A stretch of DNA of 41,890 nt, from the NCBI GenBank assembly GCA_017883615.1, contig JADGNF010000008.1, positions 1 to 41,890 of the forward strand. Direction: 5' to 3'. The DNA comes from Candidatus Bathyarchaeota archaeon (GTDB taxonomy: Archaea > Thermoproteota > Bathyarchaeia > Bathyarchaeales > Bathycorpusculaceae). Under the pieces are notes generated by a model that was given only the letters and a program-made list of their open reading frames with translations, made no database searches and was not told the origin of the DNA. Made by a program: the position numbers and the translations under genes. Within the stretch, counting starts at the first letter, position 1. The number at the start of each line of letters is the position of its first letter. Shown piece after piece: positions 2,402 through 38,682 of the stretch.

Positions 2402-3697
2402 CTAGTCTAGGTGGTACGCTTCTTCTCCGTGCTGGCTGATGTCTAAGCCTGCGTCTTCTTCCTCTTGGCTAACTCGCAGCGGTGTAAACACGTTTACTAG
2501 TCTAAGCAGCAAATAGGAGCCCACAAAAGAAAACACCGAAACCACCACAACCGCCAGCACCTGAACTTCAAGTTGGTAGGCGTTGCCGTAGAAAAGCCCG
2601 CTTACATTGTTGATCAGCGTCGTCGCGAACAAGCCAACTGCTACTGCGCCAATGATGCCGCCGATTCCGTGGCAAGCAAAAACGTCTAGGGTGTCGTCAA
2701 TTCTCGATCTTCCAGACCGCCAATTAGCAACCAAATTTGAAATAATGCCGGCAGCCAAACCGATTATGACTGCGGCTGTAACCGTGACGTACCCCGATGC
2801 CGCCGTAATCGCAGCTAACCCGCACACGGCACCCACAGAGATACCAACCGCAGAAGGCTTACCCTTAATGAGCCAGTCCATAAGCATCCAGGAGACCGCT
2901 GCTGCGGCAGCTGCCAAATTCGTGACGACAACAGCTGAAACCGCCAAAGAATCTCCCGCTAACGCGCTTCCACCGTTGAATCCGAACCAGCCAAACCAAA
3001 GCAACCCTGCACCCAAAATGACGTAAGGTATGTTTGTGGGTTTGAACTCGGTTGCCGGGGAGACTGGCGCTCCGCTTTTGCCGTTCAACGCTTTTGAGTA
3101 ATCTTTCCAGTAAACGCAACCTTTTCGTCTGCCCACGATCAACGCAGCCGCCAGTGCGCTTAAGCCCGCTGCTATGTGCACGACGATTCCGCCCGCAAAA
3201 TCCACGGCGCCTAAAACGTGGAGCCACCCGCTGGTGTTCCACATCCAGTGAGCGATGGGCGAATAAATCAGTGTGGACCACAAAACTACAAAGATGAGTA
3301 GGCTTTTGAAACGGATTCTTTCCGCACAGGCACCGATGATTAATGCTGGGGTTATGGCGGCGAACTTTAGTTGGAACCCAAAGAATAGGAGTTCGGGAAT
3401 TTTCGGCGCGTAGGGGCTGACGCTGTTTATGCCTATACCGTTTAGTCCAACGAGTGACAGGTTGCCTATGATGCCTCCGATGCTGGCTCCGTAAACTAGG
3501 CTGTAGCCCCAGAACAACCAGATAAGGCTGACAACGGCGAATATTATGAGGCACTGAACCAGGGTAGAGACAAGGTTTTTTCTTCGAACCAATCCGCCAT
3601 AGAAGAAGCTTAACGCTGGAGTCATGAGCATAACGAGGGCTGTGGACATGAGAACCCATGCGATGTCGCCTGCCCCGAAAGTTGGTACTGCAGACAT
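2402..3697 (-). CDS. amt: Ammonium transporter (Amt/MEP/Rh family), copy 1
   Basis: This 431-residue, roughly eleven-span channel conducts ammonium across the cytoplasmic membrane. Family motifs are present: FFYGGLVRRKN near the N-terminus, the GACAERIRF segment, DFAGGIVVHIAAG in the middle, and the conserved DDTLDVFACHGIGGI stretch, whose histidine is one of the paired pore histidines. The N-terminus is short with no cleavable signal. It lies 209 bp downstream of a second, clearly related amt copy on the same strand and has its own TATA box and palindrome. No glnB/glnK gene is adjacent, although a PII gene next to amt is the usual arrangement. Confidence 0.95.
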   Translation of the reverse strand: MSAVPTFGAGDIAWVLMSTALVMLMTPALSFFYGGLVRRKNLVSTLVQCLIIFAVVSLIWLFWGYSLVYGASIGGIIGNLSLVGLNGIGINSVSPYAPKIPELLFFGFQLKFAAITPALIIGACAERIRFKSLLIFVVLWSTLIYSPIAHWMWNTSGWLHVLGAVDFAGGIVVHIAAGLSALAAALIVGRRKGCVYWKDYSKALNGKSGAPVSPATEFKPTNIPYVILGAGLLWFGWFGFNGGSALAGDSLAVSAVVVTNLAAAAAAVSWMLMDWLIKGKPSAVGISVGAVCGLAAITAASGYVTVTAAVIIGLAAGIISNLVANWRSGRSRIDDTLDVFACHGIGGIIGAVAVGLFATTLINNVSGLFYGNAYQLEVQVLAVVVVSVFSFVGSYLLLRLVNVFTPLRVSQEEEDAGLDISQHGEEAYHLD

Positions 3698-19678: not shown

Positions 19679-21010
19679 ATGAAGAATGTATCTGCAGAAA
19701 AAAAGTACATGCCTGAAATGCCCCAAAAAGAAATTGAAGAACTAAACTCCTCCGTTAAAGCAACCTCTGCGAAAATCATAGCTGACAACATCGCACGCAT
19801 GAAGAAAACAGACCCCAACCGACCCGAGGGCATGAAATACTTCGATGAAATATCAAACTTTTTTGGGCAACGTCCAAAAGAAATCCAAGACGCAAAAATC
19901 AAAGGGAAAAAAGTCATTGGGTATTTCTGCGTTTTCGCGCCGGTCGAGCTAATCTTGGCGGCAGACGCTATTCCAGTCCGCGTTAATTCCGGTTGGTATG
20001 ATACCTCAAAGCTTGGCGATCGCATCGTGCCGGTCGAAGTTTGTCCAGTTATTCGTTCCACGATAGGCGCCAAAATGATTGGGCTATCGCCTTACCTGGA
20101 ATTAAGCGACGCCGTGATAAGCACTCTGACGTGCGACGGCATGACTAAGCTCAGCGAAATCCTGAGCGATTCCAAAACAATCTGGACTATGACGCCGCCC
20201 AGAGTCAAAGATAGCCCTCAGAGTCTTCAATTGTGGAAAGAAGAAATCAAAACCGTTAAAACCCAACTTGAAAAAATTACAGGAAACAAGATTACCGCTA
20301 AGAAGCTAAAGGAAGCAATCGAAACCATGCAGAAAGCAAGTAAAGCTTTCCGTAGGCTTCAGGAACTCCGAAAAGGCAACACGGTTCTAATGGGCAGAGA
20401 TGCCATGTTGGTTAATCAAGCAGCTTTGTGGGATGACATCAAACGTTGGACAGAGAAAACCGAAGCTCTTTGCGATGAGTTGGAAATGCGTATTAAAGAT
20501 AAAGCCTGGGCTTGCCCGCCTGATACGCCAAGAGTTATTGTAACGGGAACGCCGATGTTTTGGCCCGACAACTGGAAATTACCGACACTCATCGAAGAAG
20601 CGACTCCTCAAGGAGTACTTGTTGGCGACGAGATGTGCTCCAGTGACAGAATCCTCTACGATCCTGTGGGAATTGATGAGTGGACAATGGATGACATGAT
20701 CAATGGCATAGCTGAACGTTACCTTATGGCCTCCACCTGTCCGTGCTTCACCTCGAAAGACGGCAACGAAGATCGCGTCAACTGGCTCATAAACAAAGTT
20801 AAAGAGAACAAGGCGCAAGGGGTCATCTATTACGTGGTTCGAGGCTGCATCCTCTACGCCATGGAATACACCCGAGTCAAGAAGGCACTGGACAAATTGG
20901 GCATACCAGTATACTATTTGGACACAGATTACACGCGGGAAGACGTTGGGCAAATGAAAACGCGTGTAGAAGCATTCTTGGAAATGCTGACAGCCAGAGT
21001 AGACATCTAG
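19679..21010 (+). CDS. 2-hydroxyacyl-CoA dehydratase / BcrBC-like protein with a double-cubane cysteine pattern
   Basis: This 443-residue protein belongs to the HgdB/HadBC/BcrB-BcrC family (PF06050), whose members accept ATP-activated low-potential electrons. Nine cysteines are present: C84 (GYFCVFAP), C122 (VEVCP), C152 (TCDG), C265, C279, C320 (GDEMC), C354 and C356 (STCPCF), and C390 (VRGC). The family needs three for one [4Fe-4S]. Two triads, one in each half of the protein, are what a double-cubane [8Fe-9S] cluster needs, as established for the DCCP branch. Only one catalytic-type gene is present, so a homodimer is likely. Family membership is clear; the substrate (acyl-CoA, aromatic CoA or a small molecule) is unknown. 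Confidence 0.88.
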   Translation: MKNVSAEKKYMPEMPQKEIEELNSSVKATSAKIIADNIARMKKTDPNRPEGMKYFDEISNFFGQRPKEIQDAKIKGKKVIGYFCVFAPVELILAADAIPVRVNSGWYDTSKLGDRIVPVEVCPVIRSTIGAKMIGLSPYLELSDAVISTLTCDGMTKLSEILSDSKTIWTMTPPRVKDSPQSLQLWKEEIKTVKTQLEKITGNKITAKKLKEAIETMQKASKAFRRLQELRKGNTVLMGRDAMLVNQAALWDDIKRWTEKTEALCDELEMRIKDKAWACPPDTPRVIVTGTPMFWPDNWKLPTLIEEATPQGVLVGDEMCSSDRILYDPVGIDEWTMDDMINGIAERYLMASTCPCFTSKDGNEDRVNWLINKVKENKAQGVIYYVVRGCILYAMEYTRVKKALDKLGIPVYYLDTDYTREDVGQMKTRVEAFLEMLTARVDI

Positions 21011-21021
21011 AGGACCTCACT

Positions 21022-21810
21022 ATGGCAATTACTGCCGGAATAGACATGGGCATCCAAACCGTCAAAGTCGTCATACTAAAAGACGGCGCGGTCGTCGGAA
21101 GAGCCAAAGCTTCTTCGGGTTTTGAACCCGCCAAAGCTGCAGAACAAGCGTTTGCTGAAGCGCTGCAAATTTCGAAATCGAGTAAGGAAGAGGTAACACA
21201 GATTTTGGCCACCGGTTCAGGCATGGAAACGGCACCATACGCAAACGGCAACGTTAGTATGATGGGCGCCGACGCGAAGGCAGGCGTTTTTCTTTTTCCC
21301 TCTGCCAGAACAATTGTCGACATCGGAGCAGAAGAAGCACGTGCTGTGAAATGCGACGAACGAGGCATCATGCAAGATTTCGTAGTAAACGAACGCTGCG
21401 CGGCAGGTGCAGGAACCTTCATCGAAGCCATGGCAAGAGCACTAGAGGTAAAGCTGGAGGACATGGGTCCTCTAAGCCTAAAAGCTGAGCGTGCCAGCCC
21501 AATTAACGCGAGCTGCGTTATCTTCGGCGAATCCGACGTGGTTTCGCTCATTCACAGACAGGAATCCAAGCCAGAAATTGCCCGGGCAGTTTTTGACGCG
21601 ATGGCTGACCGCATCTCCTCAATGGTGCATAGGCTTGGAATAAACCTAGATGTCGTCGTGGTCGGAGGGGTAGCCAAAGACGTGGGTTTTGTGGACTCGC
21701 TAAAAAGAAAACTCGGAATTAAAATTCTTGTTCCCGAATACCCCGAATACGTGGGCGCATTAGGCGCGGCGCTAACAGCTGCAAGCCGGGTGAAGGTTGG
21801 TCAACAGTGA
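21022..21810 (+). CDS. BcrD/BzdQ-like ATPase activator of the dehydratase/reductase family
   Basis: This 262-residue ATPase has the acetate kinase/Hsp70/actin fold used by HgdC-type activators, which couple ATP hydrolysis to electron injection. Phosphate loops are GIDMGIQTVK at the N-terminus and VDIGAEEARA in the middle; the latter differs from the common IGGQD and resembles one of the two BCR activator types. Both cysteines of the dimer-bridging [4Fe-4S] cluster are there: NERCAAGAG and NASCVIF. A final GALGAALTA segment closes the nucleotide site. It starts 11 bp after the HgdB-like gene and overlaps the next activator by 4 bp. Confidence 0.9.
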   Translation: MAITAGIDMGIQTVKVVILKDGAVVGRAKASSGFEPAKAAEQAFAEALQISKSSKEEVTQILATGSGMETAPYANGNVSMMGADAKAGVFLFPSARTIVDIGAEEARAVKCDERGIMQDFVVNERCAAGAGTFIEAMARALEVKLEDMGPLSLKAERASPINASCVIFGESDVVSLIHRQESKPEIARAVFDAMADRISSMVHRLGINLDVVVVGGVAKDVGFVDSLKRKLGIKILVPEYPEYVGALGAALTAASRVKVGQQ

Positions 21811-22712
21811 CTGAATTACCAAAAGAACAGAAAGAGTTCTGGCGTTGGCAAGAATACCACAGGGTCCGAAATGACAGAAACTGGAAAAACAAAGACGTAA
21901 TCACGGCTGGCGTTGACGTCGGTTCAGTAGGTTCGAAAGCGGCAATCATGATTGACGGGGAAATGTATGCTTGGGCAGTCACGCGGACTGGATCAAATAG
22001 TCCGGACAGCGCTAAGAAGGTCATGGGTATGGTCTTGGAGGACACCGACCTAAAGCAAAGTGACATTCAGTACACCGTAGGCACAGGGTATGGCAGAGTA
22101 AACGTTCCGATGGCAAACAAAGCCATTACTGAGATTGCATGCCACGCGAAAGGCGCCAACTACATTTGGGGACCCTCAGTTAGAACAATTCTAGACGTAG
22201 GCGGACAAGATATCAAGGCAATTCACTGCGACGAAACAGGTCGCGTCACCGCCTTCCTCATGAACGATAAATGCGCAGCTGGCACGGGCAGAGGAATGGA
22301 AGTTTTCGCTGACCTGCTACAAATCCCCATTGAAGACATAGGCAAAGTCAGCCTAAGCGTTGACGAAGACCCCCCACCGGTAAGCTGCACCTGTGTTGCT
22401 TTCGCAAAAACCGAAGCCATCGGCTTACTTCGAAAAGGCTGGACCAAAGAAAAAGTCCTAGCGGCTTACACGCGGGCTATGGCGATTAGGATGGCAAACC
22501 TCGTGAACAGGGTCGGCTTAGAGAAGGATTTCGTCATTACAGGAGGGCAAAGCAAAAACATTGGCATAGTTAGCAGAATAGAAACAATTCTGGGTGTGAA
22601 GACTTTGCCCTCACCTAACTGGCGTGAAGGCGGATTAGACCCTATGATTGCAGGGGCAGCTGGCGCCGCGTTGCTTGGCAAAGCGTTATACCTGAAAAGT
22701 AAAGGCAGCTGA
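21807..22712 (+). CDS. BcrA/BzdP-like ATPase activator of the dehydratase/reductase family
   Basis: This 301-residue paralogue of the preceding gene is the second activator subunit. It has GVDVGSVGSK and LDVGGQDIKAI phosphate motifs and cluster cysteines in NDKCAAGTGRGMEVF and VSCTCVAF. The CAAGTGRGMEV sequence is typical of BcrA-type subunits. An extra N-terminal region of about 35 residues is rich in charged and aromatic residues. The GTG start overlaps the TGA of the previous gene, so the two subunits are likely made in equal amounts and form a heterodimer, as in class I benzoyl-CoA reductases. They would pass electrons one at a time from ferredoxin to the HgdB-like protein. Confidence 0.9.
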   Translation: MTELPKEQKEFWRWQEYHRVRNDRNWKNKDVITAGVDVGSVGSKAAIMIDGEMYAWAVTRTGSNSPDSAKKVMGMVLEDTDLKQSDIQYTVGTGYGRVNVPMANKAITEIACHAKGANYIWGPSVRTILDVGGQDIKAIHCDETGRVTAFLMNDKCAAGTGRGMEVFADLLQIPIEDIGKVSLSVDEDPPPVSCTCVAFAKTEAIGLLRKGWTKEKVLAAYTRAMAIRMANLVNRVGLEKDFVITGGQSKNIGIVSRIETILGVKTLPSPNWREGGLDPMIAGAAGAALLGKALYLKSKGS

Positions 22713-23203: not shown

Positions 23204-23710
23204 CATGTTTGGTGCCTAATATTCAATGCATGCAGAAAAGGGGGGAGGGGGTAGGTCAAAGCAGGGTTGCAGGGCGGATACTTAGCAAACGCCCTCATGT
23301 TTGAAGCTTAATCGTGACTCATTGCAGAAACCTATGGGGGGCGGGGCGCTATTGGCTGTTTCTTCTTCCATTAGCATGCTGGAAGAAGGTAAGGGGGGAA
23401 GGTAGGGCGAAAACGCAACTTATCTGCCAACGGTTCCGGAAAGAGTGTTTTCAGCCTTTAAATAAGGGAGGGGTAGGTCTTGAACGCAACAGGTTCCGGT
23501 AAGCCATTTTTCCGAAGTTTTTTTCTTTGGTTGTGGCTATTTGTAGAGGGGGTAGGTCGCCGCAGAGCAAACGCCTTCAAACAATTGACAAAATTATGTT
23601 TGGAGCCTAATACTCAATCTATGCAGAAAAAGGAGCGAAGGGTAGGTGCTATTGGCTGATTTTCAAGCCATTAGCATGGTGAAAAAAAGATGGAAACCGG
23701 TAGATCAACA
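23204..23710 (+). repeat. Mosaic repeat array, locus A (modules X-Y-Z-W-X-Y)
   Basis: This is non-coding sequence built from modules that recur here and, inverted, at 37.2-37.6 kb. X (23204-23257 and again 23595-23648) starts ATGTTTGG and ends in a G-run plus GTAGGT. Y (hairpins at 23348-23375 and 23648-23675) has arms GCTATTGGCT and AGCCATTAGC, with one mismatch in the second copy. Z (about 23409-23479) contains CTTATCTGCCAACG, TTCCGGAAAGA and CCTTTAAATAAGG. W (about 23480-23558) starts GAACGCAACAGG. Most modules end in a GGGGTAGGTC-like motif. Short open frames across it look accidental. It lies directly upstream of the winged-helix membrane gene. Confidence 0.75.
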
Positions 23711-23826
23711 ACGTAGCCTACCTATCATGTAGTCAACGATGACACCAAAACCCATAAGAACGCAAACTGGCAAGGTTTGACTAACGAAGCAGGTTGTCTT
23801 TGTTCGGGTTTGAGGGGTATTTGGCA

Positions 23827-24282
23827 GTGTCGAACGTCGGCGGCGAGCAAATTGAGGGCACAACTCTCAGAGTTTACGTTTACGTTGTGAAGCAGGGTAG
23901 ACCGCTGGGTCCCCGCGACGTGACGCGGGGTTTGCAACTTAGCAGCCCAAGCGTGGCGTACCGTCATTTGCAGAAGCTCGAAAACGCCAATCTTCTCAAG
24001 AAAGATGAGCATGGCGAATACGTTGTCCAAAAGAAAACAAGTTTGGGCGGCTTCTACTGGGTGGGCAAAAGTTTCCTTCCTAGGACCATGTTCTATTTCT
24101 TTTTCTTTTTGGGGCTTTTCGTCGCCGAAGCCGTCATTTTAGGCATTCATTTGCCATACGAAAAGTACGAGGAATTCGTTTTCTTCGGTCTCGGATTAAC
24201 AATCACGGGGATAGCTATGACATTCTTTCTAATTGAAGGAGTAAAGGCACTTAAGAAACTCAAAAACAAAGAATCCGACTAA
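23827..24282 (+). CDS. Winged-helix protein with two membrane spans
   Basis: About 151 residues. The N-terminal part is a winged helix-turn-helix of the archaeal MarR/ArsR-like kind: GPRDVTRGLQLSSPSVAYRH, then LQKLENANLLKKDEHGEYVV. The C-terminal part has two membrane spans (after FLPRTMFYFFFFLG, and the segment ending FFLIEGVKAL). I chose GTG 23827 because GAGGGG lies 9 bases before it and the N-terminus then matches its paralogue at 38241-38682; the frame is open back to TTG 23794. Membrane-bound HTH proteins of this layout are common in archaea, but their targets are mostly unknown. It is bracketed by repeat modules on both sides. Confidence 0.8.
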   Translation: MSNVGGEQIEGTTLRVYVYVVKQGRPLGPRDVTRGLQLSSPSVAYRHLQKLENANLLKKDEHGEYVVQKKTSLGGFYWVGKSFLPRTMFYFFFFLGLFVAEAVILGIHLPYEKYEEFVFFGLGLTITGIAMTFFLIEGVKALKKLKNKESD

Positions 24283-24410
24283 CATGCCACAGACAAGAAA
24301 CCATACACAGGTAACGAAAAACGCAAATAATGCCTGCAATCAAACGACAAAAAACAGTTCCCGTAAAACAAACGCAATCAATCCAAACCCTTTCCCCAAC
24401 GAGCATTGTA

Positions 24411-24475
24411 ACACCAACGTTTGGCGCCTTTAAATAAGGGGGGTATAGAAGAGAAAACGCAACAGAAGAGAACTC
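24411..24475 (+). repeat. Repeat fragment, locus C (modules Z' and V)
   Basis: The segment GTTTGGCGCCTTTAAATAAGG, followed by a G-run, ATAGAAGA and CGCAACAGAAGAGA, matches the inverse complement of 37178-37228 almost base for base. It therefore represents the terminal part of the same repeat family, separated from locus A by the winged-helix gene. Confidence 0.7.
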
Positions 24476-34153: not shown

Positions 34154-36292
34154 ATGGCAAGGTTCAAGCAAATCGCTCAAATCCAGCAGCTCATGAGTAG
34201 CAAAGAGCAGATTCGTAACTTTGGGATAATCGCTCACATTGACCATGGCAAAACTACGCTGGCTGATTCTTTGCTGGCGGGTGCGGGTTTGCTTTCGACG
34301 CAGATGGCTGGCTCTGCTAGGGTGCTGGATTATTTGGCGGAGGAGCAGAAGCGGAAAATCACGATAAAAACTGCTAACATAAGTTTGCTCTATAAAACTG
34401 GCGACGATAGATACCTCATTAATTTGGTCGATACTCCGGGGCATGTGGATTTCACGGGCAAAGTTACCCGAGCGCTTCGAGCCATCGACGGGGCAGTAGT
34501 TTTAGTGGATGCCGTGGAGGAGATTATGGCTCAGACTGAAATCGTTACGCGTCAAGCTCTGGAACAGCGGGTTAAGCCGGTGCTTTTCATAAACAAAGTG
34601 GACCGGTTGATTACGGAGTTGCATTTAAGTGCTGAAGAAGTCGAAAAGAAGCTGAACCGCATAATGAGCAGCTTTAACGATTTGGTTGAGCTTTATGGGG
34701 AAGAGCAATTCAAGGACGAGTGGAAGGTTGATGCGGCAAAAGGCAATGTCGCGTTTGGTTCTGCGTTGCATGGTTGGGGGTTTACGTTGGATTTGGCGAA
34801 ACGCAAGGGAATGAAGTTTTCCGACGTGATTGCTGCTTACCTTAAAGCGGATTACTCGGGTTTGCAGAAGATTTTGCCTGTTTACGCTGCGGTTTTTGAG
34901 ATGGCTATCTGCAACCTGCCAAATCCCAAGCAGGCGCAGGCGTACAGGGTGGATCGAGTTTGGAGTGGGCTACGTTATTCGAAAGTGGGCAAGGCCATTG
35001 CGGAATGCAGCGACGAAGAGTTAACGGTTATCTGCGTGACTAATGTTCAGCCAGCTCCCGAAAGTGGAAGTGTAATCACAGGAAGAATCTTTTCGGGCAT
35101 CGTAAAGAAGGGTGATAAGCTTTATTGTGTTAATGCCCTGCGAGAAACGGTTGTGGAGAAAGCTTACGTTTACATGGGTTCTTTCAAAGAGGAGGTAAAT
35201 CAGGTTTCTGCAGGTAACATCGCGGTTTTGGAAGTTGCCGAGACATTAACTGCTGGCGAAACCCTTGTGGATGTCGAACATAAAGCGGGAATGGTTCCGT
35301 TTGAAAGCATAAACTACGTTTCCGAACCAGTTATGATTGTAACCATCGAACCTAACGATCCCAAAGACATCTTCGCCTTGTTGAAAGCTCTTCATAAGCT
35401 CATAACGGAAGATCCAAACCTCGCGTTTTCTGTTGACAAGGAAACAGGCGAATACTTGCTGAGCGCTATGGGCGAACTTCACTTGGACGTTGCTTTGAAC
35501 CAGCTGAAAACTGTAAGCGGCGGCATAAAGATTACAGTTTCTCCGCCGAGGGTTGTTTATCGGGAAAGCGTCACTAAGAAAGGTGTGGTTGCCGCAGCGA
35601 CGAGCCCTAACAAGATGAACAGATTCACGGTGCAAATAGAACCAGAAGAGGAGCAGACAAACCAGTTATGCATGGATGAAACAGCCAGTGTGGTTTCTGT
35701 AGATGAACAGCGCAATGTACTTGTGGATTGCAACGGGAAAACCGAGCAGATCAGCGAAGATGTACTGGAGCCAGTTATCGGAGGGTTCGAGTTTGCATGC
35801 AAAGCGGGTCCACTTTGCGGCGAACCCATGCGACACGTGAAAGTGAACTTACTGGACCTACAAGTTAGCGAGGTGGCAGACCAGAGAAGTTCCACCGAAG
35901 TTATGCATAGCGTTGGCAAAGCCATCTTCGGCTCTTTCTTAACCGCAAAACCGGTGCTGCTTGAACCCGTCTACAAAACCGTCGTTACTGTTTCAACGGA
36001 TTTGGCAGGCGAATGCTCCCGAATCATCGAGACCAGACGTGGAAAGATATGCGCCTTCCAACAAAAAGGACTATTGTCAGTCATCACCGCGTACATTCCA
36101 GTCTCAGAAACGTTAGGGTTATCTAAGCAGATGCGTTCGGCCACTTCAGGTAGGGCTTTTTGGCAGAACATTCTTGATCATTGGGAACAGGTTCCTGAGA
36201 AACTTGCGGCAAAAATCATTTTGGAAGTTCGGAAGCGAAAAGGCTTGGCGGCGGAAGTTCCCTCTGCAGGTAGGTTTTTGGAGGAAGGCTAA
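34154..36292 (+). CDS. EF-2 family translational GTPase lacking the diphthamide histidine
   Basis: This 712-residue protein has five-domain EF-G/EF-2 architecture. GTPase motifs are AHIDHGKT (27-34), switch I KITIKTAN (normally RGITI), DTPGH (93-97), NKVD and the SALHGWGF loop. Domain IV carries the EF-2 signature region, but the residue modified to diphthamide in EF-2 (the second His of a sequence like HADAIHRGGGQ) is Gln 577 here: EVADQRSSTEV. The neighbouring glycines are lost too, so this looks like an EF-2 paralogue or a lineage without diphthamide. The frame extends back to GTG 34082, but similarity to EF-2 begins near ATG 34154. The last base of its stop codon overlaps the glycosylase start. 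Confidence 0.88.
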   Translation: MARFKQIAQIQQLMSSKEQIRNFGIIAHIDHGKTTLADSLLAGAGLLSTQMAGSARVLDYLAEEQKRKITIKTANISLLYKTGDDRYLINLVDTPGHVDFTGKVTRALRAIDGAVVLVDAVEEIMAQTEIVTRQALEQRVKPVLFINKVDRLITELHLSAEEVEKKLNRIMSSFNDLVELYGEEQFKDEWKVDAAKGNVAFGSALHGWGFTLDLAKRKGMKFSDVIAAYLKADYSGLQKILPVYAAVFEMAICNLPNPKQAQAYRVDRVWSGLRYSKVGKAIAECSDEELTVICVTNVQPAPESGSVITGRIFSGIVKKGDKLYCVNALRETVVEKAYVYMGSFKEEVNQVSAGNIAVLEVAETLTAGETLVDVEHKAGMVPFESINYVSEPVMIVTIEPNDPKDIFALLKALHKLITEDPNLAFSVDKETGEYLLSAMGELHLDVALNQLKTVSGGIKITVSPPRVVYRESVTKKGVVAAATSPNKMNRFTVQIEPEEEQTNQLCMDETASVVSVDEQRNVLVDCNGKTEQISEDVLEPVIGGFEFACKAGPLCGEPMRHVKVNLLDLQVSEVADQRSSTEVMHSVGKAIFGSFLTAKPVLLEPVYKTVVTVSTDLAGECSRIIETRRGKICAFQQKGLLSVITAYIPVSETLGLSKQMRSATSGRAFWQNILDHWEQVPEKLAAKIILEVRKRKGLAAEVPSAGRFLEEG

Positions 36293-37155
36293 TGGGTTTT
36301 TGTGATGTCCCGTTTTGGTTGGATGTTACGTTGTGTTGTGGGCAGGTTTTCCGTTGGGAAAGGCAAGGAGAATGGTGGTACGGGGTTGCTCGAGACAAAG
36401 TGTTAAAGGTTCGGCAAATCGGGGGGAGATTTGAGTACGCTAACGTGGACGCTAAGTTTGTTGAGTACTATTTCAGTTTGGATGTGGATCTGCAGGGAAT
36501 CGTTGATAGCTTTAATCGGGACGCACATATTGGCAAGGCAGTTAAGGAGTATTGGGGTTTGCGGCTTATCAGGCAGGATCCTTGGGAATGTTTGATCTCT
36601 TATATTTGTGCCACATACAAGAGCATTCCTGCAATCAGGCTCATGTTAAATAAAATGGCAAAGAAATTCGGCGAGAAAACGGTCTTAGACGGCTTGGAAT
36701 TTTACACGTTCCCCGAGTGTAAGAAACTTGCAGAGGCATCTGAGAGGGATTTGTTGGATTGCGGATTGGGTTACCGCACTAAATACGTCCTTGAAACCTC
36801 CAGAAGAATTTGGCAAAGCAACTTTGACCTTGAAAGCATAAAGAAACAACCTTACTCGGAAGCGAAGAAAGCGTTGATGGATTTTCCGGGTGTGGGCGCA
36901 AAGGTAGCTGATTGCGTGTTGCTTTTCTCGCTGGGTAAAACTGAGGCTTTTCCAGTCGACATTTGGGTGAAGAGGGTTATCCTGAACCATTACAGCGATA
37001 AACTTGAGCCTGAACTTGCAAAGAAGCTTTCTGCTCGCGATTCGCTTAGCAGCGGAGATTACGAACGGCTGAACTCGTTTGGCAGAAACTACTTCGGCTT
37101 GCACGCGGGCTACGCTCAAGAATATCTTTATCATTACGAGCGAATGACGCTTTGA
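36292..37155 (+). CDS. ogg: 8-oxoguanine DNA glycosylase/AP lyase (OGG1 type)
   Basis: This 287-residue helix-hairpin-helix GPD glycosylase removes oxidised guanine from DNA. The N-terminal CGQVFRW and the substrate-pocket region match OGG1. The HhH motif FPGVGAKVADCVLLFSLGKTEAFPVDIWVKR contains the catalytic lysine (AKVADC) and the catalytic aspartate (PVD), both conserved. The sequence IRQDPWECLISYICATYKSI matches the OGG1 core. It shares one base with the stop of the EF-2 family gene (TAATG), so it is likely translated from the same message. Its C-terminus is followed by the second repeat array. Confidence 0.93.
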   Translation: MGFCDVPFWLDVTLCCGQVFRWERQGEWWYGVARDKVLKVRQIGGRFEYANVDAKFVEYYFSLDVDLQGIVDSFNRDAHIGKAVKEYWGLRLIRQDPWECLISYICATYKSIPAIRLMLNKMAKKFGEKTVLDGLEFYTFPECKKLAEASERDLLDCGLGYRTKYVLETSRRIWQSNFDLESIKKQPYSEAKKALMDFPGVGAKVADCVLLFSLGKTEAFPVDIWVKRVILNHYSDKLEPELAKKLSARDSLSSGDYERLNSFGRNYFGLHAGYAQEYLYHYERMTL

Positions 37156-37177: not shown

Positions 37178-37607
37178 CTCTCTTCTGTTGCGATTTTTCT
37201 TCTATCCCCCCTTATTTAAAGGCGCCAAACGTCTCCTAGCCGCCGGCAGATAAGCTACGTTTCAGGCCCACCTATCCCTCCTCTTGCTCCACGGCGAGCT
37301 ACCCCCCTCTATTTATGGTCACAAACAAAGAAAGAAACTGGTCAACAAGCTCACCGAGGCCTGTTGCGTGCGAAGCCTACCCCCTTCCTTATTTAAAGGC
37401 TGAAAATATTCTTTCCGGAATCGTTGGCAGATAAGCTACGTTTTAGACCTACCCCTTTCGACCTCTATGGTTTTTTCAACATGCTATTGGGCTGAAAATC
37501 CGCCAATAGCGACCCCTACCCCTACCTTTTTGAATAACGAAAACCCGCCCTTCCATCCGACCCCCCTCCCCCTCTACCGCATACATTGAATATTAGGCAC
37601 CAAACAT
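37178..37607 (-). repeat. Mosaic repeat array, locus B (modules X-Y-Z-W-Z'-V, inverted)
   Basis: Read on the minus strand this region has the same modules and order as locus A: X (37555-37607), Y (perfect 8-bp hairpin GCTATTGG, 37483-37490, with CCAATAGC, 37503-37510), Z (37374-37444, with TTCCGGAAAGA and CCTTTAAATAAGG), W (about 37290-37373), then a second Z-like unit Z' (37206-37266) and V (37178-37205). Modules are separated by C-rich stretches, the complement of GGGGTAGGTC. Identity to locus A is high in module cores and low between them. The region 37156-37767 holds no gene. Confidence 0.75.
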
Positions 37608-37767
37608 GGGGCCTGCTGTCTTCAACTCTTTCAGTTCAGAATGTGTTGCTCTCGGCCTCTACCATCCTTTACATAAATTAAGACACAGTCAATCAAGACT
37701 CGTTTTCCGAATCAAAACAGAACAATTATAGAAGGCTTACCCAAAGAAGGTCATTTTAAGGGAACCG

Positions 37768-38240: not shown

Positions 38241-38682
38241 CTATTCAGGTCGCCTTTTTCTAAATGTTGTCGAAAGCGTCCCTTCTATTAAGAAGAGACC
38301 TGCCGAAATGGCAGTCACCGCGATGAGTAAAATGAAGTCATATTGCAGCGGTTCGTTCTCAACCACCCTAGTAGCAGCGATAACAGCTTCTACACTTAAA
38401 ATGCCCACAAAAAAGAAAGCGTAAAACATCAGCCTCGGGAACAATCTGTTGCCTACCCAGAAGTGTCCCTTTACCCTGACGCATCTTTACAGTGTATTCG
38501 CCAAAAGAGTCTTTCTCGATTAAGCCACTTTCTTCCAGTTTCTGTAGGTTCCTATAGGCAACGCTTGGGCTGCTCAGATTCGCTAGACGGGTGATTTCTC
38601 TGGGTCCCAGCGGTTTATCTTCATTGACCAAAGCAACGTAAATTCTTAGGGCTGTGCCCTCTAATTCTTGGTCGATAGTCAC
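38241..38682 (-). pseudogene. Frameshifted winged-helix/two-span membrane protein (paralogue of the gene at 23827)
   Basis: Two overlapping frames together encode one homologue of the protein at 23827-24282. The first frame (from GTG 38682) has the winged helix: LGPREITRLANLSSPSVAYRN, then LQKLEESGLIEKDSFGEYTV. The second resumes with VKGHFWVGNRLFPRLMFYAFF and two membrane spans ending in LFLIEGTL. A one-base indel near 38480, just after GEYTVKMR, separates them. This may be true decay, a programmed shift or an assembly error. The GTG start overlaps the TAG of the upstream secreted-protein gene by one base, so the genes were translationally coupled. Confidence 0.75.

Follow-up and report, generated by a model that had tools for sequence, protein, structure and literature searches.

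What are the short repeated modules that recur, in two inverted arrays and one fragment, along a 41,890-nucleotide stretch of a Candidatus Bathyarchaeota archaeon genome (contig JADGNF010000008.1; the whole stretch is called the window here)? An account made from the letters alone (the sequence-only reading) had described three loci, A, B, and C, as sharing these modules and had considered a structured RNA family, a DNA-organizing element, and a non-autonomous mobile element. The sharing is real. A repeat search aligned A with B in inverted orientation at 23401-23473 versus 37381-37453 (73 nt, 89%) and at 23204-23255 versus 37557-37608 (52 nt, 87%), and aligned C with B, also inverted, at 24417-24443 versus 37206-37232 (27 nt, 100%); module hidden Markov models (HMMs) likewise recovered modules shared by A and B and by B and C. 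Proteins of the host genome match archaeal EF-2 and PEP carboxylase models.

Modules of loci A, B, and C

Iterated profile HMMs were used to name six module types, X, Y, V, W, Z, and P, the last being the type previously called Z', which has the A/T box of Z and a different tail. Locus A was resolved as X-X'-Y-V-P-W-X-Y-V on the forward strand (23204-23726). Its first X (23204-23257), the left end of an XY unit, starts with CATGTTTGG and is followed by X' (23296-23345; HMM E value, 8.8e-07), a third X-like copy of the array that is absent from the sequence-only reading. Y (23343-23390) contains GCTATTGGC..CCATTAGCATG, V (23401-23435) contains the imperfect inverted repeat GGTAGG..ATCTGCC, P (23449-23503) carries the Z-like A/T box CCTTTAAATAAGG and then GGGGTAGG and CGCAACAG, and W (23520-23570) contains GGCTATTTGTAGAGGGGGTAGGTC. 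A second X (23596-23647), a second Y (23640-23686), and a second V with AACGTAGCCTACCTATC (23699-23726) complete the array, with all nine modules on the forward strand. The far end of A, at about 23726, lies beyond the boundary drawn earlier; the X-to-X and Y-to-Y spacings within it, 392 bp and 297 bp, agree with those first reported.

Locus B was resolved as X-Y-V-P-W-V-Z on the reverse strand (37608-37185), with X at 37561-37608, Y at 37472-37525, V at 37422-37453, P at 37350-37405 (A/T box CCTTTAAATAAGG .. CACGCAACAGG), W at 37284-37336, a second V at 37238-37272, and a terminal Z at 37185-37228, all on the reverse strand. P and W are present in both arrays. The terminal Z lies 30 bp past the stop codon of a convergent OGG-type gene (36292-37155). 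Locus C is a lone Z on the forward strand (24421-24465, GCCTTTAAATAAGGGGGGTATAGAAGAGAAAACGCAACAG). The G-rich word GGGGTAGG, which had been singled out as a conserved feature, recurs in most modules.

A winged-helix gene (23794-24282) sits between A and C, and a paralogue near B (38280-38682, reverse strand) looks frameshifted, with its homology running on in another reading frame. Elsewhere in the window, a double-cubane/2-hydroxyacyl-CoA dehydratase-like reductase and two BadF/BcrAD-type ATPases, then a small ferredoxin-like gene, were found at 19679-22712 on the forward strand. A weak Rfam tRNA match at 1295-1356 on the reverse strand (30.8 bits), not called by ARAGORN, is possibly a decayed or intron-containing tRNA.

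Copies in the host genome and among relatives

The sequence-only reading had proposed a search of the genome and its relatives for further copies, and many were found in both. A blastn search of the 1.73-Mb draft host genome with the 430-bp B element gave 52 matches (E ≤ 0.001), and single-module searches of that genome added further copies. In 358 kb of host sequence, made up of stretches taken around repeat matches, module HMMs matched 40 X, 24 Y, 17 V, 38 Z, 28 P, and 25 W at E ≤ 1, the P and Z matches overlapping in part. These modules form about 59 clusters, a number in which one contig-end overlap (C6/C76) is counted twice. Together with the repeat search, the blastn matches and HMM counts rule out chance similarity.

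All 59 of these clusters lie outside predicted genes. All four orientations relative to the flanking genes were found (16, 13, 11, and 10), with no clear enrichment of clusters in convergent intergenic regions. The modules of any one cluster share a strand and follow the constant order X-(X')-Y-V-P-W-[X-Y]-V-Z with variable composition, and whole units are also encountered solo, as Z or as XY. A CRISPR array, already set aside in the sequence-only reading, was rejected because the modules differ, their spacing is variable, and the linkers are also conserved, a layout unlike that of CRISPR. Many contigs terminate inside repeats, as is expected from recent long identical copies, and the family would account for contig breaks when such genomes are assembled. 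A, B, and C belong to this family, a mosaic of short non-coding interspersed repeats.

Using an X sequence model, the X family was detected in 32 of 91 genomes and 11 of 33 genera of the host's archaeal family, and its presence was found again in a second search. Copy numbers, which were capped in these searches, are bimodal and patchy within genera, with genomes carrying mostly at least 28 copies (up to 120 or more) or zero to six. A search of four genomes counted 45 X in the host and 38 in G005, with minimum counts of 89 in G088 and 123 in G072. The copies are spread along the entire genomes and lie on both strands; the X-Y order is also kept in other genera. G004 is without the family though it belongs to the host's genus, and no X was detected in G071, which has ~80% DNA identity to the element-rich G072. 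Outside the archaeal family, the search returned one weak X match in one genome and nothing more, and as far as searched the repeats appear to be restricted to this family. Exact repeat patterns matched nothing in viral contigs, which argues against a viral origin.

The distribution of Z, followed with its own model, is different. In four genomes (G001, G006, G083, and G088), X is abundant and no Z was detected, and three others (G081, G084, and G087) have 13 to 29 Z but 0 to 6 X. Since X and Z counts are uncoupled across genomes, X(Y) and Z behave as separate families that meet in arrays, and the earlier proposal that modules expand independently is supported by this uncoupling. At least two separately distributed or amplified units exist, XY and Z. 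The XY unit spans ~100-130 bp, from a sharp left end, CATRTTTGG, to a right end after ATAGCATGTTGAAAA; the Z unit spans ~40 bp, from the A/T box CCTTTAAATAAGG to GCAACAG. Information climbs from ~0.2 to 1.2-1.8 bits at the left edge of X and drops to ~0 within two bases to the right of GCAACAG. P and W share the layout of Z and look like its diverged siblings.

In several Z copies from genomes of genus g12 (L301, L302, L304, L306, and L311), the A/T box is immediately preceded by an inverted repeat, GCATACG-N4-CGTATGC or variants of it, and in G082 homology extends downstream of Z. A further dispersed short motif, GTATACAAAAGCATCAAC and then (A)AAACA, is intergenic in the host and g12 genomes (L109 at 3102-3120; L276, L278, L280, L274, L275, and L279; L072 at ~2198) and sometimes lies within ~100 bp of a Z or W module.

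Structured RNA, promoter, and terminator readings

A structured RNA family was one of the natures first suggested for these modules, with a hairpin in Y as a conserved feature. Some copies of Y and V do contain an imperfect hairpin, and RNAalifold predicts a consensus hairpin for V. However, predicted folding of the elements does not exceed that of dinucleotide-shuffled sequences (forward-strand z, -2.2 to 1.2 for nine segments), and the hairpins show no covariation, with 285 of 359 paired cells in Y compared with 284 in shuffles and 88 of 98 in V compared with 89. The Y hairpin can be seen in locus B, but only its left arm, GCTATTGG, is near-invariant among copies; the right arm varies. This left arm looks like a protein-recognized word rather than one side of a helix. 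The repeats have no Rfam match, and a tRNA or other known RNA family was rejected on the basis of the ARAGORN and Rfam searches, in line with the sequence-only reading, which had seen no tRNA in them. Because there is neither excess folding nor covariation in Y and V, a structured RNA family is not supported, and we regard this explanation as highly improbable.

The geometry of Z had also suggested that each copy could be a promoter. Extended to P, W, and Z, this would make the three modules archaeal core promoters, with a TATA box, ~22 nt, and a start at GCAACAG, that have spread through the genome and drive neighboring genes or non-coding RNAs. A TATA-like 8-mer does lie ~22 nt from GCAA(CAG) in Z, P, W, and variants from other genomes, with differing spacer sequences (distances counted by hand, plus or minus one or two from the length of the G run). 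If GCAACAG is the start, the box is centered near -27, the position at which the TATA box of archaeal promoters is centered (PMC5316973); in addition, the bases of Z at -1 and +1 are a pyrimidine and a purine, respectively, and its -10 region is rich in A. On the other hand, the promoter motif derived from 302 regions upstream of genes in the host and related genomes includes an A-rich BRE, and Z, P, and W have other sequence at that place. Their forward-strand motif scores are mostly 0 to 3, with one variant at 4.3, compared with medians of 3.2 for shuffled upstream DNA and 5.7 for real upstream DNA, most P, W, and Z examples falling below the shuffled value. A same-strand downstream gene follows 35 of 55 Z copies, which is not significant, and is rarely within 60 bp. 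The TATA-like box and the 22-nt spacing are thus retained from the earlier proposal, whereas the missing BRE, the low scores, and the lack of a significant orientation bias speak against gene promoters. Judged on motif and spacing, promoter function of P, W, and Z is unproven, and we consider it unlikely that these modules are dispersed core promoters.

A general terminator role was rejected because the orientation of Z relative to genes is inconsistent. In eight cases, a convergent gene ends at a distance of 2-38 bp from a reverse-strand Z whose T-tract is slightly richer than that at other gene ends, suggesting that some Z copies may serve as terminators.

Probable mobile units and their closest known counterparts

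Contigs C32 and C76 share a 303-bp P-W-X-V-Z block at 97% identity. The block starts with the A/T box of its P module and stops at the GCAACAG of its Z module, and its flanks on the two contigs differ and are unrelated by inspection. Two XY copies on C41 have 91% identity over 143 bp. Furthermore, genomes carry their own sequence types of the modules: 66 of 96 X copies had their nearest relative within their own genome (20 expected; maximum of 37 in 500 label shuffles), a bias that is possibly inflated somewhat, as the copies were sampled by similarity to own-genome modules. These genome-specific types could have been produced by gene conversion instead of transposition.

Other copies appear to be old. 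In G006 and G003, the region behind the OGG gene contains modules in the same place and orientation as B (X and a decayed Z in G006, W and V in G003), and G005 and G007 have likely V and Z remnants, as judged by eye. Since copies at this site are kept across species, either some insertions predate species divergence or the site is a hotspot. Orthologous intergenic sites in genus g12 point to copying, as only some of the species carry elements there; these sites were compared at ~65-88% DNA identity, which is too diverged for base-exact empty sites. In gap 1, X-Y with P or W was found in G072, G073, and G094 and X-Y in G083; no element was found there in G071, G084, G079, or G080. At this site, ~16 bp separate the aligned blocks in G071 (L266, C176), compared with ~400 bp in G072 (L194, C1). 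In gap 2, the orientation of the element in G072 is opposite to that in G073 and G094; only Z or W/Z was found in G084 and G087.

The same-site copies, at the OGG gene and in gap 1 of four g12 genomes, also fit vertical inheritance of a functional element. The modules would then be DNA-binding or chromosome-organizing sites whose words (the A/T box, GGGGTAGG, and GCTATTGGC) are bound by a host protein and which are kept intergenic for their function. Conservation of words without RNA covariation, the near-invariant left arm of Y, and the presence of copies on both strands across whole genomes are in line with such a role, as are the site and orientation common to several species. However, whole families are missing from close relatives, as in G004 and G071, X copies are most alike within the same genome, and the XY and Z distributions are uncoupled. 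We therefore find a cellular function of this kind improbable as the explanation of the family.

For the sequence-only proposal of a non-autonomous mobile-type element, the fit is best, given the copy number, sharp ends, copied blocks, nearest relatives within the same genome, patchy presence, uncoupled X and Z counts, and differences in presence and orientation at orthologous sites. The mosaic family probably consists of non-autonomous interspersed repeats, short and non-coding, that were spread by a trans-acting enzyme or recombination process. Such a process would recognize conserved words at the unit ends, namely, the A/T box and GCAACAG, ~22 bp apart, in Z, and CATRTTTGG and GCTATTGGC/GCCAATAGCATG in XY. 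DNA copies would be inserted into tolerated intergenic sites, and arrays would grow through tandem duplication and through insertion beside copies already present, and would decay later. Co-option of some copies is conceivable, as with a reverse-strand Z that may act as a T-rich terminator behind a gene.

The search for ends and for a mobilizer gave the following picture. No terminal inverted repeats were found, as the XY ends (CATRTTTGG and GTTGAAAA) and the Z ends (CCTTTAAATAAGG and GCAACAG) are not inverted copies of each other, and only a weak CATG..TTGG resemblance between unit ends was noted by eye. No target-site duplications were seen by eye at the flanks, the relatives being too diverged for exact empty sites. 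The enzyme search was directed at the Y1/RAYT family PF01797 in view of the GTAGG in front of the Y palindrome, an arrangement known from REP repeats (PMC3733652). It is absent from the host genome, its genus, and most high-copy genomes, which argues against RAYT/IS200 mobilization; the search covered this one family, and a RAYT may have been present in the past. No open reading frame is consistently flanked by modules, and no transposase or recombinase partner was found. The winged-helix gene was rejected as an autonomous partner, with one paralogue near B and none at the other clusters examined.

More tentatively, the family may represent a new class of archaeal mobile DNA, with minimal units down to 40 bp, in which a trans-acting system would move any segment from A/T box to GCAACAG, which would spread and vanish wholesale among related species and form composite arrays with promoter-like geometry. 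The family, which reaches more than 120 copies in a genome and is patchy between close relatives, raises the question of how a 40-bp unit is copied, and it offers many natural presence/absence sites.

High-copy mosaic repeats have been described from bacteria such as pneumococcus and Neisseria; no archaeal counterpart or description of such repeats was found in the literature searched, most subscription papers lying outside the reach of that search. The miniature inverted-repeat transposable elements (MITEs) of archaea and bacteria are likewise short, non-coding, multi-copy, and probably mobilized in trans, but terminal inverted repeats, target-site duplications, and a parent transposon were not recognized for the present family. 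GTAG-tagged REP/RAYT repeats (PMC3733652) are also short, high-copy, and extragenic, and here GTAGG lies just 5' of the imperfect palindrome of Y; in contrast to REP, the Y palindrome is not maintained across copies, and PF01797 is lacking from the host and most high-copy genomes. The neisserial mosaic elements, with dRS3 and RS (PMC3898611), likewise form intergenic arrays of at least 200 bp in which several families of short repeats are combined and a short word recurs. They differ in that the archaeal modules have no 20-bp dRS3-like inverted-repeat boundary, carry the GGGGTAGG word inside the modules, keep a constant order, and have no known linked phage integrase. The BOX elements of Streptococcus are modular, intergenic, non-autonomous interspersed repeats with variable module number, fixed order, and no gene of their own; they have terminal inverted repeats, target-site duplications, a predicted RNA fold, and an insertion sequence with similar ends (PMC3049150). 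Inverted repeats, duplications, a stable fold, and a matching insertion sequence were not seen here, and the archaeal units Z and XY, unlike BOX, also occur alone and with separate distributions among genomes. In its ordered modules, variable copy number, and intergenic location, the archaeal family resembles BOX, and its layout is closest to that of BOX and the neisserial mosaic elements.
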